Source: a virus. From it: a DNA stretch of 64,000 bases. The stretch is taken from the IMG/VR virus record IMGVR_UViG_3300000553_000004, positions 150,734 through 214,733 of that record; one strand, written 5' to 3'. Each line of letters opens with the position of its first letter. Within the stretch, counting starts at the first letter, position 1. The notes below the pieces were generated by a model that was given only the letters and a program-made list of their open reading frames with translations, searched no databases and was not told where the DNA came from. The position numbers and the translations under genes are program-made. Positions 8,998-60,721 of this stretch are shown here, in pieces.

Positions 8998-9288
8998 ATG
9001 GAAATGTACAGTATAAACATAAATGAAAGTAAAACCGAAATATTTCGGGTGTTGACAATTCTATTTTCTAAAGGTTATGTGTTTTCGGATAATAGAATTA
9101 ACACGATTGGACAGTTTGACCGGAGTTACGGTGGTGATTCGTTTTCTTATTGGCTGTATTTAGTTATAGGTTCCGAACGGGCGAATGGATGTAAGGTACA
9201 AATGCACGCATTCACCAGTCATCAGATGGGCAGTACGACCGTCGCGGTTGAGGATTTTGTAAATAAAATTCATGAAAAAGAAATATAA
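8998..9288 (+). CDS. VF-motif small-protein family member, 96 aa
   Basis: I place the start at ATG 8998; a much longer upstream in-frame extension overlaps the previous gene in another frame and is rejected. It belongs to a local paralogous family whose hallmark is an N-terminal helix followed by KGYVFSDNRxxT and a C-terminal VEDFVxK segment. The following gene overlaps by 17 nt and is a paralogue. Function unknown. Confidence 0.6.
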   Translation: MEMYSININESKTEIFRVLTILFSKGYVFSDNRINTIGQFDRSYGGDSFSYWLYLVIGSERANGCKVQMHAFTSHQMGSTTVAVEDFVNKIHEKEI

Positions 9289-9562
9289 AATAAAATTGAC
9301 GACTAATAATGTAAAGGAAATCATTACGACTTTACTTGGAGTCCATAGTTTCGTTTTTAACCTTGAGAGATATAGAACGTGGGAGTCGGTGGAACTTGAA
9401 ATTATCAAATCTGATAAGGGATTACGTTGGCCTTGGATTCTTTTGGGTTATACTGATAGATGTAGTAAGACGATAATACCGTCGAGGGTTGATTGGGATG
9501 GCCTTGATGATTACAAGGAAATAACTCTTGACGAATTTATTAAAAAGGAATTGACAGTATGA
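9272..9562 (+). CDS. VF-motif small-protein family member, 96 aa
   Basis: ATG 9272 (MKKKYKIKLTTNN). Shares the layout of the 8998 gene: helix, VFNLERYRTWE, a central W-rich strand and a closing LDEFIKKEL helix. Family function unknown. Confidence 0.6.
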   Translation: MKKKYKIKLTTNNVKEIITTLLGVHSFVFNLERYRTWESVELEIIKSDKGLRWPWILLGYTDRCSKTIIPSRVDWDGLDDYKEITLDEFIKKELTV

Positions 9563-14251: not shown

Positions 14252-14343
14252 AACAATAGATTATCAGGTTTTTATAAAACGTCAAGCCTTGCAGCTCTAC
14301 GCTTGACTGTAAAGGATGTCCTGATAAGATAATGGGAAATGTC

Positions 14344-14640
14344 ATGAGTCATCCTAAATACAAGCTAGAACTTAACACGGATTCATTTGAACCCATTATT
14401 ACAGAGTTGTTTAGGCATGGCTTTGTTTTCAGTAACGGTAGATTTAAGACTATGGCTGAAATTAAAGCCTGTCACGGTAATAATCCAGCTTGGGACTACC
14501 TAAATTTTGGCCATCATTTCGAATGTCGGATGGTTGTCTTTGGTAGCTTTTCATCTTGGATGCGTGAAACCGTGACTTTAAAGGAATTTCTAAAGATTAA
14601 GTATTACCAGCGCTTGACTGTAAAGAATAAACCAGTATGA
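14344..14640 (+). CDS. VF-motif small-protein family member, 98 aa
   Basis: Promoter TTGACT (14302) -16- TAAGAT; an in-frame ATG at 14332 lies only 1 nt after the -10, so transcripts could not include it, and ATG 14344 (MSHPKYKLELN) aligns with the next paralogue (MIHPRYKICLD). Carries RHGFVFSNGRFKT and a closing LKEFLKIKYYQRLT. Its last codons contain another GCTTGACT. Function unknown. Confidence 0.7.
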   Translation: MSHPKYKLELNTDSFEPIITELFRHGFVFSNGRFKTMAEIKACHGNNPAWDYLNFGHHFECRMVVFGSFSSWMRETVTLKEFLKIKYYQRLTVKNKPV

Positions 14641-14921
14641 TTCATCCTAGATACAAAATATGTCTTGACGCACATAATAGCTTCGACGCAATTGCGACGG
14701 AGTTGTTTAGGCATGGCTTTGTTTTCGGTCGGTTCCGATTGAAAACCATTGAAGAGATTGACAAGGAGTATAGTCTTAAATGGAGTTGGTCAGACATTAG
14801 TATTGGAATTGATTCCGAGTGTCGAATGGTCTTACATGCAAACGGTTTGAGTATGAATGAGTGTAAACTGATAACTCTTGAAGATTTTCTAAAGATTCCC
14901 TATTACCACCGCTTGACTTAA
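14637..14921 (+). CDS. VF-motif small-protein family member, 94 aa
   Basis: ATGA overlap with its paralogue. RHGFVFGRFRLKT and LEDFLKIPYYHRLT mirror the upstream gene; the final R-L-T-stop codons (CGC TTG ACT TAA) are the -35 of the next promoter. Recent tandem duplication is evident from shared nucleotides such as GAGTTGTTTAGGCATGGC. Confidence 0.7.
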   Translation: MIHPRYKICLDAHNSFDAIATELFRHGFVFGRFRLKTIEEIDKEYSLKWSWSDISIGIDSECRMVLHANGLSMNECKLITLEDFLKIPYYHRLT

Positions 14922-14954
14922 TCCCTTCTTTTGGTATCTTATTCAGACTTATAT

Positions 14955-15236
14955 ATGAGAATCGTTTACATCATCAAGACGCTCAAGCGGGCAGAGTTTA
15001 TCCGAGTTTTTAATAAACTGGCTCGTAAGGGTTACTGTTATGATGCGGATTGGCGCCTCCGCAAAGCCAGTTTGATTATTAAGGCTCGTAATGGACATCC
15101 GTTCCTTTTGTTGTTAAATGCCGACCCTGACTGTAAAATGGTGGTTTGTAACGGAAATCACCAGCGTTTTTCAAGTGACACCAAGGTCTTTACTCTCACG
15201 GTTGAAGACTATCTAAAACTTAAATTGTATGAATAA
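14955..15236 (+). CDS. VF-motif small-protein family member, 93 aa
   Basis: The promoter inside the previous gene (TTGACT-16-TATCTT ending at 14940) gives an 8-nt leader before ATG 14955, preferred over an upstream ATG that would precede +1. Contains RKGYCYDADWRLRK and VEDYLKLKLYE. Stop overlaps the next gene. Confidence 0.65.
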   Translation: MRIVYIIKTLKRAEFIRVFNKLARKGYCYDADWRLRKASLIIKARNGHPFLLLLNADPDCKMVVCNGNHQRFSSDTKVFTLTVEDYLKLKLYE

Positions 15237-15525
15237 TTTGATAAAACCATACAAAATTGAGTGTACTGACTCTGACCAAGTGAAAGAACGTTTACTCTTT
15301 TTGATAAGTAAGGGTATGGTGTTTACCACTTACCGTCACCGAACTTGGGAAGTCATCTCTACTAAGTGTGGTGACCCGTGGCGGCGGTGGTGTTAGATTG
15401 AAGCTTGCCATGAAAATGATTGTTTGAAGGTTTTGAACACACGTCGATACCGGTTAGATAATGAGACTAAACACACTAAGATTGAGTTTGAAGATTTTGT
15501 GGCTCATGTCTTACCGTTGTTGTAA
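15229..15525 (+). CDS. VF-motif family member interrupted by one in-frame TAG
   Basis: Reading from ATG 15229 (overlapping the previous stop) gives 98 codons to TAA 15523-15525, with a single TAG at codon 56 (15394-15396). Both halves align with the paralogues: SKGMVFTTYRHRT before the TAG, and IEACHENDCLKVLN then FEDFVAHVL after it. The TAG sits where paralogues at 14344 and 15863 have tyrosine. A CUA-anticodon tRNA at 57068 could read it. Otherwise it is a fresh nonsense mutation. The downstream frame has not decayed. Confidence 0.7.
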
Positions 15526-15562
15526 CGCTTGACTTTTTGTAACCTTTGTATAAATTGGAACC

Positions 15563-15862: not shown

Positions 15863-16153
15863 ATGAACCCAGCTGGATACAGAATTAAATGTCGTAGTAA
15901 TACAGAGTGTATGGCTCACATGGAAGTCCTTTTAAAGAGGGGATTTGTGTTCACTACTGACCGGCATAAAAAGATTAAGGATATTCGGGAAAACTGGCCG
16001 TTTAATTCTTGTGAGTGGAAATACATTTATGCCGGACACGAAGAACATTGCAAACGAGTTTTGAACGCATCCAAAGTGTCAGGTAATTGGAATTTTGATA
16101 TCGGTGAAATGACGGAAGTGTCACTTAACGACTTTTTGAAGTTGGATTTGTAA
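15863..16153 (+). CDS. VF-motif small-protein family member, 96 aa
   Basis: MNPAGYRIKCRSN opens, KRGFVFTTDRHKK is the family signature and LNDFLKLDL closes. It is the closest relative of the TAG-interrupted gene (same WKYIYAGHEEHCKRVLN region). Function unknown. Confidence 0.7.
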   Translation: MNPAGYRIKCRSNTECMAHMEVLLKRGFVFTTDRHKKIKDIRENWPFNSCEWKYIYAGHEEHCKRVLNASKVSGNWNFDIGEMTEVSLNDFLKLDL

Positions 16154-17846: not shown

Positions 17847-18329
17847 ATGAAATTTTCAAAACAATATACCGATGAAGAATGGTTTTCGTTATCGCTTGAA
17901 CAACGAAAAAGATATCCGACATATAAAATGATGTTTCTTCTTCTTGAAGATGTTGGTAGAATTGAACGGGTTGTTTGTCAACTTATCCGATTACCCAAAG
18001 GAGTTTGGTCTGAATTGTATTATATTTCCATGGCGTCTAAACATCATACATTGCCGGGATTCAGTAGTTCAAAAGATGAACTGGGCCGTAGCGTGTTCAC
18101 ATCTACATTAACCGATTCAAACTTGTTTGATACTCATTATTTAGCTCACATTGAACTCGTTAAACGTCATAATACACATATTAACAATTACAAAAAATCC
18201 ATTTCTTTTTTACAAAAAATGCTAAATAGTTCTTTGAAAATATCAAAACGTCTTAAAAAGATAAAAGTGGATAACAAATACAAAAATACATACCGTAAAA
18301 CTCGTTACGGATATTACGCAATTATTTAA
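17847..18329 (+). CDS. hypothetical basic protein, 160 aa
   Basis: Standard promoter 17813-17840. The N-terminus YTDEEWFSLSLEQRKRYPTYKM is helical and the last 30 residues are strongly basic and tyrosine-rich. Its end overlaps the convergent GIY-YIG gene by 4 nt. Confidence 0.6.
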   Translation: MKFSKQYTDEEWFSLSLEQRKRYPTYKMMFLLLEDVGRIERVVCQLIRLPKGVWSELYYISMASKHHTLPGFSSSKDELGRSVFTSTLTDSNLFDTHYLAHIELVKRHNTHINNYKKSISFLQKMLNSSLKISKRLKKIKVDNKYKNTYRKTRYGYYAII

Positions 18330-19078
18330 TGATGTTTTGGTTGTGGTAAAGTCAAAAGTAACCATTCTTTTTTCTTTCCAGTATGTTTTCTTATTCCCCT
18401 AACTAACAATCTTATACCAAAATAAGATAAATGTGGATTTTTAATACTAAAATGAAAACTTGTTCCTTCAAATTTCTCTTTGGTCAACCGATTATAGAAG
18501 ACGTGAACGGTTTTGTCTATAAATCGTTCTCTCATTTCACCCATAAGTTTTTTATTGGTTAAACTTATTTTTCTTTTGGTGTCTTCCGATACCACTTTCC
18601 CTTTAAGTTTATCTGATATTTTCTTTCTAATTTCAGTAGTGAAAACTTGTCGTTCGGCAAGAAAATTTTGGTTGTAACATTTATTCTGTTCCGTCTTGGC
18701 AATGTCAAGATATTTTTGTTCTACCAAGATTAGTTTGTCTATTGGAACTTTTTCAACCACTTGAAATATAAAGTTTTCTTCTCCATACTTGTTCCAAGAT
18801 GACTGTAAATGTGGATTGGTATGTCGGCTCTCTGTCAACATCGTTTGATGTTGTCTCCTTCTATTCCAAAAGTAGTTGGTTGACCCAACATAATATTTCC
18901 CATTAACCTTGTTTATTATCTTGTATATCCCTGACACTTTCTTTCTTTTTGTAATATCGTTGAAGGCTTTCCACTCGCATTCTGTCTTTGTTTTTTTCGT
19001 AAAATCTCTTTCCTCGTTCCCGATTTTGTTCTCTAATCTGTTCAACGGTGAGTCTGTTATTTCGTTTTGGCATATCAT
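18326..19078 (-). CDS. GIY-YIG homing endonuclease
   Basis: I start at the ATG complementary to 19076-19078 (MICQNEITDS), which follows AAAGGAACATT and matches the paralogue at 40501; a longer upstream open frame lies antisense to another gene and is rejected. The catalytic signature is GIYKIINKVNGKYYVGSTNY, with the downstream Arg/Glu region and a C-terminal DNA-binding part (RKKISDKLKGK, a NUMOD3-like segment). It would cut a specific DNA target and promote its own spread. A second conserved frame overlaps its first 55 codons. Confidence 0.85.
   Translation of the reverse strand: MICQNEITDSPLNRLENKIGNEERDFTKKTKTECEWKAFNDITKRKKVSGIYKIINKVNGKYYVGSTNYFWNRRRQHQTMLTESRHTNPHLQSSWNKYGEENFIFQVVEKVPIDKLILVEQKYLDIAKTEQNKCYNQNFLAERQVFTTEIRKKISDKLKGKVVSEDTKRKISLTNKKLMGEMRERFIDKTVHVFYNRLTKEKFEGTSFHFSIKNPHLSYFGIRLLVRGIRKHTGKKKEWLLLTLPQPKHH
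18903..19073 (-). CDS. overlapping basic small ORF, 56 aa
   Basis: Starts 5 nt inside the GIY-YIG gene (ATGATATG) in the +1-shifted frame and reads MPKRNNRLTVEQIREQNRER through FYEKNKDRMR to a TAA just inside the GIY motif. Equivalent frames occur at three other endonuclease genes here and this frame is better conserved than the nuclease frame. It may be a separate DNA-binding peptide or the N-terminal half of a frameshift fusion. Confidence 0.5.
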   Translation of the reverse strand: MPKRNNRLTVEQIREQNRERGKRFYEKNKDRMRVESLQRYYKKKESVRDIQDNKQG

Positions 19079-19246
19079 AATGTTCCTTTCAGATAATAAG
19101 TATGTTGTTGAACATCTAAACGTTAAGAAATCTTTGGAATTCATTTTTATATTGACGCTTGACTTCTTAAAACAATGGTATAGAATTTTGTCATAGTTAA
19201 AAACAACAACTACAACAAACAAACAAACAAAAACAAATAACAAACT

Positions 19247-19789
19247 ATGAAAAACAACAAACAAAACAAGTCGAATCGTAAAAGCATGAAGGGTCGTTGG
19301 GGGAAAGTCGGAGCCCCGCCCAAGGCCACCAAGTTCCCCCGTGGAGCGTTCACGATGGAATCCCTGTTCAACATGAACCAAAATCAGTGTGAGCTGTCCC
19401 TCCGCACCAAGGTGGATATCGGAGTGGAATCCGGCGCCCTCATCGCCCTCAAAGCCCGTAAACAAAAGGGTGGCGCCGTTGGTCGGCCGAAGGCGATTTT
19501 CATCCTGAAGGAAAATTTCGACGCCTCGAAACACGAACTGGCCCCGCCGAAGTCGACGAAGACCAAGGTTGTCAAGCCCCAGACCGTGGCTGTCGTTGAA
19601 GTCGCCCAGCCGACTGTGGCTCCCGTCGCCCCCGAGGCTCTGGCGCCGGTTGTCGAAACGATTGTCGAAGCGGTTGTCAATCAACCCGTTCCGGTGAATG
19701 AAGTGATTTCTACCGAACCGGCCGCCGCGCCCGCTGTGGTTCTCGCCCCCGTCACGGCCGAGACTCTCGTTGAAATGTTGGTGAGTTAA
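19247..19789 (+). CDS. winged-helix-like protein with A/V/P-rich tail
   Basis: 180 aa, with markedly higher GC and preferred codons. Basic N-terminus (KNNKQNKSNRKSMKGRWGK), then KFPRGAFTMESLF ... GRPKAIFIL paralogous to the 17186 protein, then an Ala/Val/Pro tail. Promoter TTGACT-16-TAGAAT ends near 19184, giving a 55-nt leader made almost only of A and C (ACAACAAACAAACAAAAAC), then a strong terminator follows. Probably abundant; could be a nucleoid-type DNA binder. Confidence 0.65.
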   Translation: MKNNKQNKSNRKSMKGRWGKVGAPPKATKFPRGAFTMESLFNMNQNQCELSLRTKVDIGVESGALIALKARKQKGGAVGRPKAIFILKENFDASKHELAPPKSTKTKVVKPQTVAVVEVAQPTVAPVAPEALAPVVETIVEAVVNQPVPVNEVISTEPAAAPAVVLAPVTAETLVEMLVS

Positions 19790-19810
19790 TCCGACTCTGT
19801 TGTGACACAA

Positions 19811-19841
19811 GGCCCGCAGTTTAACGACTGTGGGTCTTTTT
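19811..19841 (+). terminator. intrinsic terminator after the 19247 gene
   Basis: GGCCCGCAGT (19811-19820) pairs with ACTGTGGGTC (19827-19836) around TTAACG, ten pairs including two G-U, followed by TTTTTC. Confidence 0.85.
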
Positions 19842-19885
19842 CTTGCGACGCTTGACAATTCTTAAATGTTTGGTAATCTACGTAT

Positions 19886-45165: not shown

Positions 45166-46068
45166 TCAAGAAACACCTTCGAAGAATGATTTTAGTATTG
45201 TATTATCACCGAATTCAAATTTAAGTCTGCGTATTAGATTCTCCGGAACATTCTTTATATCCGTATTATCTACATTGAATCTACCCAAATCGGATGATTT
45301 TCTATATTCGCCCATATCCACGATTGAAATCATATTCTTATCTGCATCATACCGGCCTTCAAAATCACTTCTGGTAGACGGGCCGTGGCATCTATCGGCA
45401 GGTCTTACGTGGAGTTCTTCGGTATCATTGTACCACCACCATATCTTATTTTTCTTATTTTTATAATTATGTCCAATATCATTATATGAGATGACTTCTT
45501 GTACGGCTTTCTTTGGATATTGTTTAACTACGTTCTGAATCTTATTCTTTATAGCATCCACGTCACCGCCTATTATGTAGATGTATTTGTGTTTCATTGA
45601 ACCCATTCCCAAGTAAATTGCGTTGGTTGCCTGATAGATGGTTCCTTTATGACCTTGATTGTCATCGGCAAACGTTACCACCACTTTTATAGATGGTTCA
45701 TCTCTCTTCAATAGTTTTAAAGATTGTCCAATTACGAAGGATTCTAGGTTCTTTATACCAATATCATCTATGAATAGTCTTTTAAGTTCGAGTATTTCTG
45801 TCGGTTTTACTTCTGGTTCGAGAAATCTACCAACAGTATAAAAAGGTACGCCGTAGATTATTACTCCAATCATTTGTCTATTTCCATCTATTTTTTTGTA
45901 TATACCGTAAATTCTTTTTATGCCGGATGGGAATGTTTCAAGGTAATGTTTAAGGACGAACGGTTCGGATTCCTGCCTACTTGTGGGTAAAATTTCAAAA
46001 TCATCCTTCATTTTCTCAAGGATGACAAATTCTTTTAATATTTTGACCACGGCATTTTTTATGCTCAT
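45166..46068 (-). CDS. Mom-like DNA adenine modification enzyme (GNAT fold)
   Basis: 300 aa. The block ELKRLFIDDIGIKNLESFVIG and then VVTFADDNQGHKGTIYQATN with YLGMGS match the conserved core of Mu Mom-type acetyltransferase-like proteins (GNAT superfamily), which add a carbamoylmethyl group to adenine and protect phage DNA from restriction. N-terminal 60 residues and C-terminal 80 are extra. Upstream is CTATTTATA-CCT-ATG, not a standard promoter. Confidence 0.65.
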   Translation of the reverse strand: MSIKNAVVKILKEFVILEKMKDDFEILPTSRQESEPFVLKHYLETFPSGIKRIYGIYKKIDGNRQMIGVIIYGVPFYTVGRFLEPEVKPTEILELKRLFIDDIGIKNLESFVIGQSLKLLKRDEPSIKVVVTFADDNQGHKGTIYQATNAIYLGMGSMKHKYIYIIGGDVDAIKNKIQNVVKQYPKKAVQEVISYNDIGHNYKNKKNKIWWWYNDTEELHVRPADRCHGPSTRSDFEGRYDADKNMISIVDMGEYRKSSDLGRFNVDNTDIKNVPENLIRRLKFEFGDNTILKSFFEGVS

Positions 46069-49978: not shown

Positions 49979-50370
49979 GGGCTCGTAATGGTTTCGACAT
50001 GATGTTGAAGATAAACGAAGCACGCCGAGGATGTTATCAGGACTCGTAAAAAGATAACAAAAACATAAATGCTAACCTTAACCGTTTGGCCAACCTCGAT
50101 TTTTCATTCTCGGTGAATGAAGTTGAGGTCGCAGTAGCTTAATAACTACTCCGTCGCACTGACCGACTTCCTCTAAGTTGGATGTGGCGTAAAATAGAGG
50201 AAGAACTGCTTGTAGTTTAAATTATAAGACTGATACGAAAGGCCAGTATGCCAATCTATGACATGTAGGTTGTTCATTACCGATAATGTCGAATTCACCA
50301 AAATGAAATAAGCGTGTAGCGTCGGTTGTTAGATATGTTATGGACGTTGGTTCAACTCCAACCGAGTCCA
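49979..50370 (+). ncRNA. ssrA: transfer-messenger RNA (tmRNA) with 23-residue tag
   Basis: 5' GGGCTCG pairs with 3' CGAGTCC, including G3-U70, the alanine identity pair; discriminator A follows and CCA is not encoded. GGTTTCGACATG and the T arm GTTGG-TTCAACT-CCAAC are standard. After ATAAAT the resume codon GCT (50071) opens ANLNRLANLDFSFSV then NEVEVAVA and TAATAA (50140-50145). The tag is longer than the usual 8-15 residues and ends AVA rather than LAA. It rescues stalled ribosomes; a phage copy is rare. Confidence 0.9.
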
Positions 50371-51972: not shown

Positions 51973-52710
51973 ATGGAATTAAAAGAACTCATCAATGAAG
52001 CTAAATACGTCGTTGCATTTACAGGTGCGGGTCTGTCAACGGAGTCTGGTATTCCAGATTTCCGGTCAAGTAGCGGACTTTATTTAAGTGGAAAATACGA
52101 AGGATATACTCCTGAACACATCTTGAGTAATCGTTTCTTTCGTTCAAATAAAGAAATCTTCTTTTCATTCTACAAGGAAAGAATTATGGCGATGTCTGAC
52201 AAACAACCCAGCCGTGCGCATTTTGCATTGAAAAAGATGCAGGACGTTGGAAAGTTGAAATCGGTAATTAATCAAAACATTGACAATCTAATTCAAAAAG
52301 CTGGCACCACCAACGTTTTTGATTTACATGGAAATATTTCATCGTTCAGATGTGTCAGCGCTTGTGGTAAAGATTATACAGGCGAAGAATTCATGAAGAT
52401 GATGGAAGACAAGCCGGTTCCTCGTTGTGAATGTGGTGGAGTCGTAAGACCGAACACCGTTCTATTCGATGAATGGTTGAATGATGACATCTATGATGGT
52501 GCCTATCACGAAGCCAAGAAGGCTGATTTGATGATTGCAATTGGTTCATCGTTGGTCGTAAGACCAGCCTGCACATTGTTGTCAGAAATTGGCCCTGATT
52601 GTAAATTGGTAATTCTCAATAGGGATGAAACTCCCTATGACAAGAAAGCCACATTGATTCTTCGTGAACCGTGTGGTGAAGTGTTGGAGAATTTGGCAAA
52701 GGAATTATGA
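51973..52710 (+). CDS. Sir2-family NAD-dependent protein deacylase
   Basis: 245 aa, full length for bacterial CobB-type enzymes. GAGLSTESGIPDFRS binds NAD, NQNIDNLIQKAGT and LHGN (catalytic His) follow, two cysteine pairs (CVSACG, CECGG) hold zinc, and IGSSLVVRPA closes the NAD pocket. It consumes NAD to remove acyl groups from lysines. TTGACA-17-TAGTAT promoter with an 8-nt leader heads an operon of six ATGA-coupled genes to 54732. Confidence 0.9.
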   Translation: MELKELINEAKYVVAFTGAGLSTESGIPDFRSSSGLYLSGKYEGYTPEHILSNRFFRSNKEIFFSFYKERIMAMSDKQPSRAHFALKKMQDVGKLKSVINQNIDNLIQKAGTTNVFDLHGNISSFRCVSACGKDYTGEEFMKMMEDKPVPRCECGGVVRPNTVLFDEWLNDDIYDGAYHEAKKADLMIAIGSSLVVRPACTLLSEIGPDCKLVILNRDETPYDKKATLILREPCGEVLENLAKEL

Positions 52711-55513: not shown

Positions 55514-56380
55514 ATGTTAGGTGCTATTATCGGCGATATAGTAGGCTCTCCGTATGAAGGGTCTTCTTTAAATTGGGTGGATGATAAATCATTCCCTCTA
55601 TTTGCAAATGAACTTTCGAGATTCACAGACGACACAATCTTGACCTGCGCTACCGCAGACGCATTATTGAAAATCAGTGATAATAGATGTGATGATAACA
55701 CAGAGTCGTTGATGTCAATGGATAAGATATTTGCCGAGAAATACATAGAATGGAATTTAAAATATCCTGGTCGTGGATATGGAAGTGGATTTCAACAGTG
55801 GGTTGATAACGGTGGAATCGACATAAATCCAAGTTATGCAAATGGATGTATGATGCGTTGTAGTCCAATACCGTTATTTTATATAGATTCATATATGGCA
55901 AGATATACGGCATATGATAGTATTAAAATGACACATAATTCTCCTGAATCGCATCGAGGCGTATGTTCAATCGTGTCTGCTATTCATATGGCTTTACAAG
56001 GTTCTACCAAACTTCAAATCAAAGCTTATGTAGAAGAACAATTCGGTCATATGTTAGATTTAACGGTAGAACAATGGAGAGAACATCCTAAGACTTCGAT
56101 TAGGTGTAATCTCTCAGCTCCACAATCATTAGTATGTTTTATGGAATCTACTGATTATGAATCTACCATCAGAAATGCCGTTTATACTAAAGGTGATACT
56201 GATACTACTGCTGCAATTGCCGGTTCTATTGCAGAAGCTTTCTACGGAGTTAAGTCGATTCCACAAGAGATGATTGATGGAGCTAAATCGAGAATGACGC
56301 CTGAGATGATAGAATTGGTAAATAAATATTATTCAATAATTGGGGAACGTAGAGAACAATATAAAGGATTTAAAATATGA
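55514..56380 (+). CDS. ADP-ribosylglycohydrolase (DraG family)
   Basis: 288 aa. GAIIGDIVGSPYE, SRFTDDTILT (metal-binding TDDT), THNSPES and GDTDTTAAIAGSIAEAFYG are the four classical motifs. It removes ADP-ribose from proteins or nucleic acids. Coupled by ATGA to a predicted outer-membrane protein. A second member lies at 59807. Confidence 0.9.
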   Translation: MLGAIIGDIVGSPYEGSSLNWVDDKSFPLFANELSRFTDDTILTCATADALLKISDNRCDDNTESLMSMDKIFAEKYIEWNLKYPGRGYGSGFQQWVDNGGIDINPSYANGCMMRCSPIPLFYIDSYMARYTAYDSIKMTHNSPESHRGVCSIVSAIHMALQGSTKLQIKAYVEEQFGHMLDLTVEQWREHPKTSIRCNLSAPQSLVCFMESTDYESTIRNAVYTKGDTDTTAAIAGSIAEAFYGVKSIPQEMIDGAKSRMTPEMIELVNKYYSIIGERREQYKGFKI

Positions 56381-58587: not shown

Positions 58588-59448
58588 TTAATATATTAAT
58601 TTCCATCCTTTCGTTTGTTTAATTTTATTTTTAATAAGTAACCATACACAACTATGATGTAAATCATATTTTATTCTAAAATCAAAACGAGTTCCTGTAA
58701 ATACTTCGCCTGTATATTGATTTTTAAAAGTATATATAGTTTTGTTATATTGAGAATGATTGTGACCAGAGCATTTATTTTTAATTTTATCTATAACACA
58801 TTGAAGACGTTTCTTTCCTTTCCATATAGATGAGAGACTAGATTTTGTTTGGTTTGAATGATGTTTTCCTAAAAATGGAGGATTGAGTTTATTATTTTTT
58901 ATCAATTGATTTAGATGGGGTATTGAATGAATTCTGCCTTTGTTGCTATTACTTATTTTCTTTTTTATTTCATCGGTCATATCTACTCTATCAGAGATAA
59001 ATGATATATTATAGCATTTACTTCTTTCTGTTTTAGCCATATCCAAATATTTTTGTTCTGTGTCTTTTAGTGTTTTGAAGTTTGCTGTTGTTTGCTCTAT
59101 TATTAGAAAATTAAAATTATTTTTACCGTGTTTATTCCACGAATTTTGAAGATAATTATTTTTGTGGTTGTTTTTATTTAAATGATAAATATGATTACTT
59201 CGTCTTTTATGAAAATTTTTTGTTGAACCAATATAATACTTACCATTAATTTTATTTATTATCTTGTAAATTCCGCTTACCTTTGTGGTATCGTTCGAGA
59301 TTTTCTTTTTTAATTCTTCTTTTGTGTCGGTTATAATACCGCATACGTCTAATTCTCCACTGCTCTCGGATTTCATCTGTGGTTCTATTAAGTTTTTTTC
59401 TCCCCATATAACATTTTCTTTTTTGATTGTTGACATTTCTCCGTTCAT
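58588..59448 (-). CDS. GIY-YIG homing endonuclease
   Basis: 286 aa; VSGIYKIINKINGKYYIGST with YLDMAKTERSKCYN and NUMOD-like segments. Third member of the group with the 19078 and 40501 genes. Start preceded by CTATTTAT-ATCAT. A conserved basic ORF overlaps its 5' third in the other frame. Confidence 0.85.
   Translation of the reverse strand: MNGEMSTIKKENVIWGEKNLIEPQMKSESSGELDVCGIITDTKEELKKKISNDTTKVSGIYKIINKINGKYYIGSTKNFHKRRSNHIYHLNKNNHKNNYLQNSWNKHGKNNFNFLIIEQTTANFKTLKDTEQKYLDMAKTERSKCYNISFISDRVDMTDEIKKKISNSNKGRIHSIPHLNQLIKNNKLNPPFLGKHHSNQTKSSLSSIWKGKKRLQCVIDKIKNKCSGHNHSQYNKTIYTFKNQYTGEVFTGTRFDFRIKYDLHHSCVWLLIKNKIKQTKGWKLIY
59252..59407 (-). CDS. overlapping basic small ORF, 51 aa
   Basis: MGRKKLNRTTDEIREQWRIR, then RYYNRHKRRIKKENLERYHK, ends inside the GIY motif like the frames at 19073 and 40496. 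Conserved layout but lies in the +1-shifted frame of the nuclease. Confidence 0.5.
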   Translation of the reverse strand: MGRKKLNRTTDEIREQWRIRRMRYYNRHKRRIKKENLERYHKGKRNLQDNK

Positions 59449-59504: not shown

Positions 59505-59810
59505 ATGGAAAAATCTTATTGTTATATACTTCAAACTATAGAAAATACGTTATATTGCGGATGGACGCTTGATTTAGATAGACGAGTTATAGAACACAAT
59601 TCCCCAGATAGTAAAACAAAACATACAAGAATTCGTCAACCAGTAAAATTGGTTTATTTTGAAGAATTTGATACGAGGGCAAAAGCGGCCCAACGAGAAT
59701 GTCAAATAAAACGATTATCAAGAAAACAAAAAATCGAATTAATTAAACTAAAATATCCAGAATTTACTATTCCTAATTTTGTTAAGAAACCACCATTTAT
59801 AAAAATATGA
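59505..59810 (+). CDS. GIY-YIG domain protein (UPF0213/YhbQ-like)
   Basis: ATG 59505 chosen over an upstream start because MEKSYCYILQTIENTLYCGW begins exactly at the domain. 101 aa single-domain nuclease with YCGWTLDLDRRVIEHN and REKR-like core, as in bacterial UPF0213 proteins. Coupled by overlap to the ADP-ribosylglycohydrolase. Confidence 0.8.
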   Translation: MEKSYCYILQTIENTLYCGWTLDLDRRVIEHNSPDSKTKHTRIRQPVKLVYFEEFDTRAKAAQRECQIKRLSRKQKIELIKLKYPEFTIPNFVKKPPFIKI

Positions 59811-60721
59811 CATTACGAGAAAGATATAGAGGCGCCATGTTAGGTTTGGCGGTTGGAGATGCGTTGGGCGTTCCAGCAGAATTTCAAGAACGAGGAACAT
59901 TTCCAAAGATTACTGAAATGATTGGCGGTGGCCCATTTCGTTTAAATCCTGGCGAGTGGACGGATGACACGACTATGGCATTATGTTTGGCAAATAGTTT
60001 GCTTGAAACAAATGAATTCAATGCAAAAGACCAAATGGATAAATACTGGCGATGGGTAGAGGATGGATATATGTCAAGTAATGGTAAAATGTTTGACATT
60101 GGAGATACTACATCAGAAGCACTTTGTAGATACAGAAAAACTGGCAATCCAATGGCAGGCAGCGACGACCCAAAATCTGCTGGTAATGGTTCTATAATGA
60201 GACTGGCACCAATACCACTTTTCTTTAAGGAAGATGACCAAGGATATCTTTTGACGGCAGCAAGATTAAGTTCAAAAACCACACATGGAGCCAAAACCTG
60301 TATTGATTCTTGTGTTTTATTATCTCTAGCAATTTATTTTGCTTTGAGAGAATTTCCTAAAGAACATTTGTTAAATATATTTACAGAACCGCCGCCATAT
60401 ACATCACCGGAGGTAATAGACATAGCAAAGGGTTCTTATAAAACCAAAACCGAAGACCAAATCAAATCAACGGGATACGTCATCCATACTCTTGAGGCGG
60501 CTTTGTGGTGTTTTCATAATACCGATACATTCGAGGATGGTTTGATAAAGGCGGTCAATCTTGGTCATGATTCAGATACCACAGGCGCCGTATATGGTCA
60601 ACTGGCAGGCGCTTATTACGGAGTTCAGGCGATTCCCCAAAGATGGCTTGACAAGATAGTGAAACGTGATATTATAATAACCGTCGCAGATAATCTGTTC
60701 GACAATAGACCATGCAATTAA
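59807..60721 (+). CDS. ADP-ribosylglycohydrolase (DraG family)
   Basis: 304 aa. RGAMLGLAVGDALGVPAEF, GEWTDDTTMAL, GNGSIMRLAPIP, THGAKTC and GHDSDTTGAVYGQLAGAYYG are complete and closer to bacterial enzymes than the 55514 copy, so the two are not recent duplicates. Removes ADP-ribose from macromolecules; may reverse host ADP-ribosylating defences. Confidence 0.9.
   Translation: MTLRERYRGAMLGLAVGDALGVPAEFQERGTFPKITEMIGGGPFRLNPGEWTDDTTMALCLANSLLETNEFNAKDQMDKYWRWVEDGYMSSNGKMFDIGDTTSEALCRYRKTGNPMAGSDDPKSAGNGSIMRLAPIPLFFKEDDQGYLLTAARLSSKTTHGAKTCIDSCVLLSLAIYFALREFPKEHLLNIFTEPPPYTSPEVIDIAKGSYKTKTEDQIKSTGYVIHTLEAALWCFHNTDTFEDGLIKAVNLGHDSDTTGAVYGQLAGAYYGVQAIPQRWLDKIVKRDIIITVADNLFDNRPCN

Follow-up and report, generated by a model that had tools for sequence, protein, structure and literature searches.

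Focal gene and its paralogues

The focal ORF is a small plus-strand reading frame of 99 codons that begins with ATG, carries a TAG at codon 56 and ends with a TAA at 15523–15525 (Table 1). It lies in the last 64 kb (record positions 150734–214733; hereafter the window, of 64,000 nucleotides) of a 214,733-base virus record. Translation of 15229–15525 confirmed the claim of an earlier note on this DNA that the frame contains exactly one in-frame TAG and is open on both sides of it. The 42 codons that follow the TAG contain no second lesion, either frameshift or stop; the protein belongs to no family in Pfam or PHROGs. The record encodes a T4-type DNA polymerase, RIIA, and ribonucleotide reductase. 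The phage is a standard-code, T4-like jumbo phage whose nearest named relative by DNA polymerase is Microcystis phage Mel-JY01 (41% identity).

Table 1. Positions of the focal ORF, its intact paralogues, the tRNA with a CUA anticodon and the promoter-like sites on either side (window coordinates)
Feature	Position	Strand	Basis and remarks
Intact paralogue 1	8998..9288	+	Profile match, open frame; Tyr TAT at TAG column
Intact paralogue 2	9272..9562	+	Profile match, open frame; Trp TGG at TAG column
Intact paralogue 3	14332..14640	+	Profile match, open frame; Tyr TAC at TAG column
Intact paralogue 4	14637..14921	+	Profile match, open frame; Asp GAC at TAG column
Promoter-like site GCTTGAC-N17-TATCTT	14911..14940	+	Motif scan; ahead of the unit 14955 + 15229
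Intact paralogue 5	14955..15236	+	Profile match, open frame; Leu at TAG column
Focal ORF	15229..15525	+	55 codons, TAG, 42 codons, TAA; member of the seven-copy paralogue family
In-frame TAG, codon 56	15394..15396	+	Sequence; first residue of predicted beta strand 56–59 (AlphaFold2)
Next promoter-like site	15527..15556	+	Motif scan; begins two bases past the focal TAA
Intact paralogue 6	15863..16153	+	Profile match, open frame; Tyr TAC at TAG column
tRNA with CUA anticodon	57068..57143	+	ARAGORN; Rfam RF00005, 57.5 bits (gathering score 29)

Whole-record family and profile searches place the focal ORF in a family of seven small paralogues, all within the 214.7-kb record. None of the six other members is interrupted, and all six lack a TAG at the focal column. 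Their identity to the focal protein does not exceed about 30%, the 15863 paralogue (27–30%) being among the nearest; the last 8 bases of the 14955 paralogue are shared with the start of the focal ORF. The earlier note had placed the TAG where the paralogues carry tyrosine. This holds for half of them (8998, 14332 and 15863) and fails for those at 9272, 14637 and 14955, which have Trp, Asp and Leu, and the placement of the column among the paralogues itself depends on the alignment. TGG to TAG is as short a change as TAT or TAC to TAG. In the searches used, the family was found only in this phage record: single-protein scans, a DNA pattern and a family profile returned no relatives from IMG/VR, GenBank phages or GTDB genomes, and the family is absent from the contigs of related phages around the polymerase gene, though these contigs are fragments. 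Because six intact paralogues are present, the focal gene is redundant.

The focal locus is known from one assembly, and no second contig carrying it was found in the searched collections, which leaves room for the TAG to come from a single wrong base in the metagenomic contig, introduced by assembly or sequencing. Such an error is very improbable in our judgement: other contigs match about 40 kb of the genome without a mismatch, which points to a low consensus error rate, though reads may be shared.

Both the focal ORF and its neighbors lie among many copies of a promoter-like motif, GCTTGAC-N17/18-TANNNT. In a motif scan the window contained 85 sites where 0.13 were expected; the record contained 125, compared with one for the reversed control, and most sites fall at 140–195 kb of the record (window 1–44000). 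A TG often directly precedes the TA of the motif, which is missing from most pieces of related records and present in a few. From its form and placement we infer that the motif is an early promoter. Since sites at 14911 and 15527 bracket the unit formed by the 14955 paralogue and the focal ORF, the focal gene is probably an early gene, translated after the 14955 paralogue with which its start overlaps.

State of the part after the TAG

We scored the focal protein against a profile built from the six intact members, with the focal gene left out. The full-length protein reached 47.7 bits; for the upstream and downstream halves the values were 27.6 and 11.3. When the downstream half was shuffled 500 times at constant composition, the highest score was 6.1 bits, and the downstream halves of the intact members gave 9.8–27.2 bits in the same test. 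The focal downstream half therefore exceeds the best shuffle and falls within the range of its intact relatives, bearing out the earlier statement that this part is conserved to a normal TAA.

With the paralogues as alignment, AlphaFold2 predicted a confident fold for the read-through product (pLDDT 87.7, pTM 0.81); the model had tyrosine placed at the stop and is silent on the residue really inserted. From residue 56 on, the predicted elements are strands 56–59 and 68–72 and a helix at 87–97. By this model, a stop at residue 55 would cost two strands and the last helix, and with them much of the fold and most of the predicted beta sheet. Because the downstream half fits the family and the predicted fold is confident, the stop is recent or tolerated. 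Codon-usage scores of the two halves rank the focal downstream half best in its own frame, with a per-codon signal that is too weak for stretches of 40–55 codons. A fold search with the focal model matched nothing in the PDB; its hits were weak and fell on small, uncharacterised proteins of phages (best E 2.8e-3, TM about 0.6).

A tRNA with a CUA anticodon

The same window contains a tRNA gene with a CUA anticodon, as had been reported (Table 1). It sits inside a 21.7-kb stretch (21,734 bases) that is 100% identical in L058, an IMG/VR contig from another sample. ARAGORN names it tRNA-Pyl from the CUA anticodon alone. The tRNA has the anticodon loop CUCUAAA, an encoded CCA, A73, an A1–U72 pair and a variable loop of 5 bases; its D arm and T loop are normal, and its anticodon stem contains one U–U mismatch. 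Its best matches are tRNA-Asp/Asn genes of Pseudomonas phages and the tRNA-Arg(CCT) of a 484-kb phage, which are not conclusive for its origin.

Bacterial tRNA-Tyr carries a long variable arm, so insertion of tyrosine by a tRNA with a 5-base variable loop is unlikely. We take this short loop to exclude the bacterial tRNA-Tyr, -Leu and -Ser classes, and A73 together with U35 presumably fits Lys best. Judged by these features, the tRNA would more likely insert Lys than Tyr. Searches of the record detected neither a phage release factor nor a Tyr/Trp-type synthetase, and because the latter was not detected, charging of the tRNA would depend on the host.

Use of TAG across the genome

Genome-wide recoding of TAG was considered and rejected. 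ORF coverage barely shifts, from 88.6% under code 11 to 89.2% with TAG as sense; the longest genes contain no internal TAG, and TAG is still in use as an ordinary, rare terminator. Among 303 ORFs of 70 codons or more, 18 (5.9%) end in TAG, compared with 3.5–5.7% in four related records and other relatives, so that avoidance of TAG as a terminator relative to relatives was not seen. Among stop triplets, TAG accounts for 16–19% in this record and its relatives alike. A backup stop within 10 codons follows 7 of 12 TAG genes versus 46% of TAA and 38% of TGA genes, which is no clear excess among so few genes.

The rest of the genome was also surveyed for in-frame TAG codons, and no further TAG-interrupted gene with a homologous second half was found. 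When the record was searched for ORFs whose stop is followed in frame by a long stretch free of further stops, 16 cases ending in TAA, two in TAG and one in TGA were returned. Of these, only for the focal ORF has the sequence beyond the stop been seen to fit a family. At record positions 128291–128542 (locus L010), a TAA-ended ORF is followed by 58 coding-like in-frame codons with a GTG near their start; these codons probably form a gene of their own that starts at the GTG. Other genes that seemed to cross a TAG in relatives (19–58 kb) were rejected: among the matches listed, the alignments examined looked like antisense or overlapping-gene shadows.

Origin and consequence of the stop

The reading that we tentatively prefer, at close to an even chance, is that a redundant early gene recently acquired an amber mutation, which is tolerated through leaky suppression by the phage's CUA tRNA. 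One base change would have converted a sense codon, probably Tyr or Trp, to TAG in a tandemly duplicated early gene. The CUA tRNA would compete with host release factor 1 for the UAG and insert an amino acid there; some full-length protein would result, allowing the mutation to be tolerated. The stop would thus be accidental and leakily suppressed, neither a programmed signal nor part of a genome-wide code change. Expression and charging of the tRNA, its amino acid, suppression in the focal gene and the recency of the change are steps that we infer. The single TAG, the family fit and confident fold of the downstream part, the canonical CUA tRNA, the non-recoded genome and the redundancy of the gene speak for tolerance, and it is plausible that the phage's own tRNA would suppress the stop in part. 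Several observations speak against it. A long-standing suppressor should have let several TAGs gather in small accessory genes, and one was found. The focal gene lies in the early-promoter region and the tRNA more than 40 kb away, where the motif is sparse; for this reason the tRNA may not be abundant during translation of the focal gene. The U–U mismatch in the anticodon stem counts against tolerance as well, as do the expected dependence on the host for charging and the failure to find any orthologue in the searched collections.

An alternative is a plain nonsense mutation, in which the focal gene is a young pseudogene, host release factor 1 reads the UAG, only a 55-residue fragment is made, and the tRNA serves something else or nothing. 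Loss of the gene would be cheap with six intact paralogues, TAG terminates ordinary genes about as often as it does in relatives, there is no read-through structure around the TAG, and jumbo phages of the XacN1 type have CUA tRNAs without a detectable amber target (PMC5852040). This account is a strong competitor, though we would put it short of an even chance. The intact family fit and the lack of a second lesion require that the change be recent, and the stop is the only type within reach of the phage's own tRNA. Two points tip the balance slightly towards leaky suppression over a plain young pseudogene: the phage could itself read this kind of lesion, and no second one follows.

That a TAG, an intact downstream half and a CUA tRNA occur in one genome would also fit programmed, functional read-through, with the TAG under selection and short and long forms made in a fixed ratio set by the tRNA. 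We consider this highly unlikely. The case is single in the genome and has no conserved counterpart that we found in the searched collections; the short form would lose most of the predicted beta sheet, and six paralogues manage without any TAG. No stable structure lies downstream either: the RNA around the TAG (15364–15484) folds little better than shuffles (z = −1.42), by a method that does not cover pseudoknots. The earlier note had proposed programmed or tolerated read-through rather than a dead gene. That the gene is not long dead is supported by the 11.3 bits of its downstream half and the pLDDT of 87.7, and tolerated read-through is possible given the CUA tRNA; the programmed version lacks support, given the single case, the ordinary use of TAG, backup stops that show no clear enrichment, the lack of RNA structure and the failure of the searches to find an orthologue.

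Relation to known systems

The nearest known cases are the jumbo phages XacN1 and RsoM2USA, which this phage resembles as a large myovirus with many tRNAs, including CUA, and a standard-code annotation (PMC5852040, PMC8504454). XacN1 has CUA tRNAs; its authors looked for products of amber read-through, and no homologous sequence turned up behind any of its amber stops (PMC5852040), whereas in the present phage the amber stop of one ORF is followed by a second half of clear homology. RsoM2USA also has a CUA suppressor tRNA (PMC8504454). A standard-code jumbo genome and a CUA tRNA, as in XacN1-like phages, are both found here. The case is a further member of this group of suppressor-tRNA phages, now with one candidate target named.

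Phages that use code 15 are well documented (PMC11210395, PMC13037316). The present phage shares with such TAG-recoded phages (Lak, crAss-like) an internal TAG and a CUA tRNA, the latter common though not universal among them. In those phages internal TAGs are numerous, and coding density rises greatly once TAG is treated as sense; here the rise is slight.

In crAss-like phages, suppressor tRNAs precede codon reassignment, and one genome is beginning to gather TAG codons (PMC7886860). The present phage resembles this incipient recoding in having a suppressor-type tRNA with little or no reassignment (PMC7886860). There, TAGs enter conserved genes such as TerL; here, by contrast, a T4-like phage has a single one, in a small gene that is redundant. 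It is conceivable, if rather unlikely, that the focal gene represents a first step of stop-codon reassignment, in which an active CUA tRNA has just made the first internal TAG tolerable, before any in hallmark genes.

The route by which phages pass from the standard code to TAG as sense is an unsettled question, and no targets had been identified for the CUA tRNAs of standard-code jumbo phages. An amber-interrupted gene with an intact second half, together with a CUA tRNA, offers a single-gene test of the function of the tRNA and of the residue that it inserts. If the stop is merely a new nonsense mutation, the case is an ordinary one.

Other features of the genome

The genome carries further features of interest. 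ORFs at 51973–52710, 55514–56380 and 59807–60721 and at record positions 91284–93341 (L008) encode Sir2-like, two ADP-ribosylglycohydrolase-like and NAD synthetase-like proteins, a set that suggests manipulation of NAD or ADP-ribose during infection. A tmRNA at 49979–50370, with the predicted tag ANLNRLANLDFSFSVNEVEVAVA, is also present in the contigs L058 and L059. A Mom-like DNA modification protein is encoded on the minus strand at 45166–46068. Two homing-endonuclease-like ORFs with matches to the GIY-YIG family (18326–19858 and 58588–59448) likewise lie on the minus strand, in a region that is mostly plus-strand.
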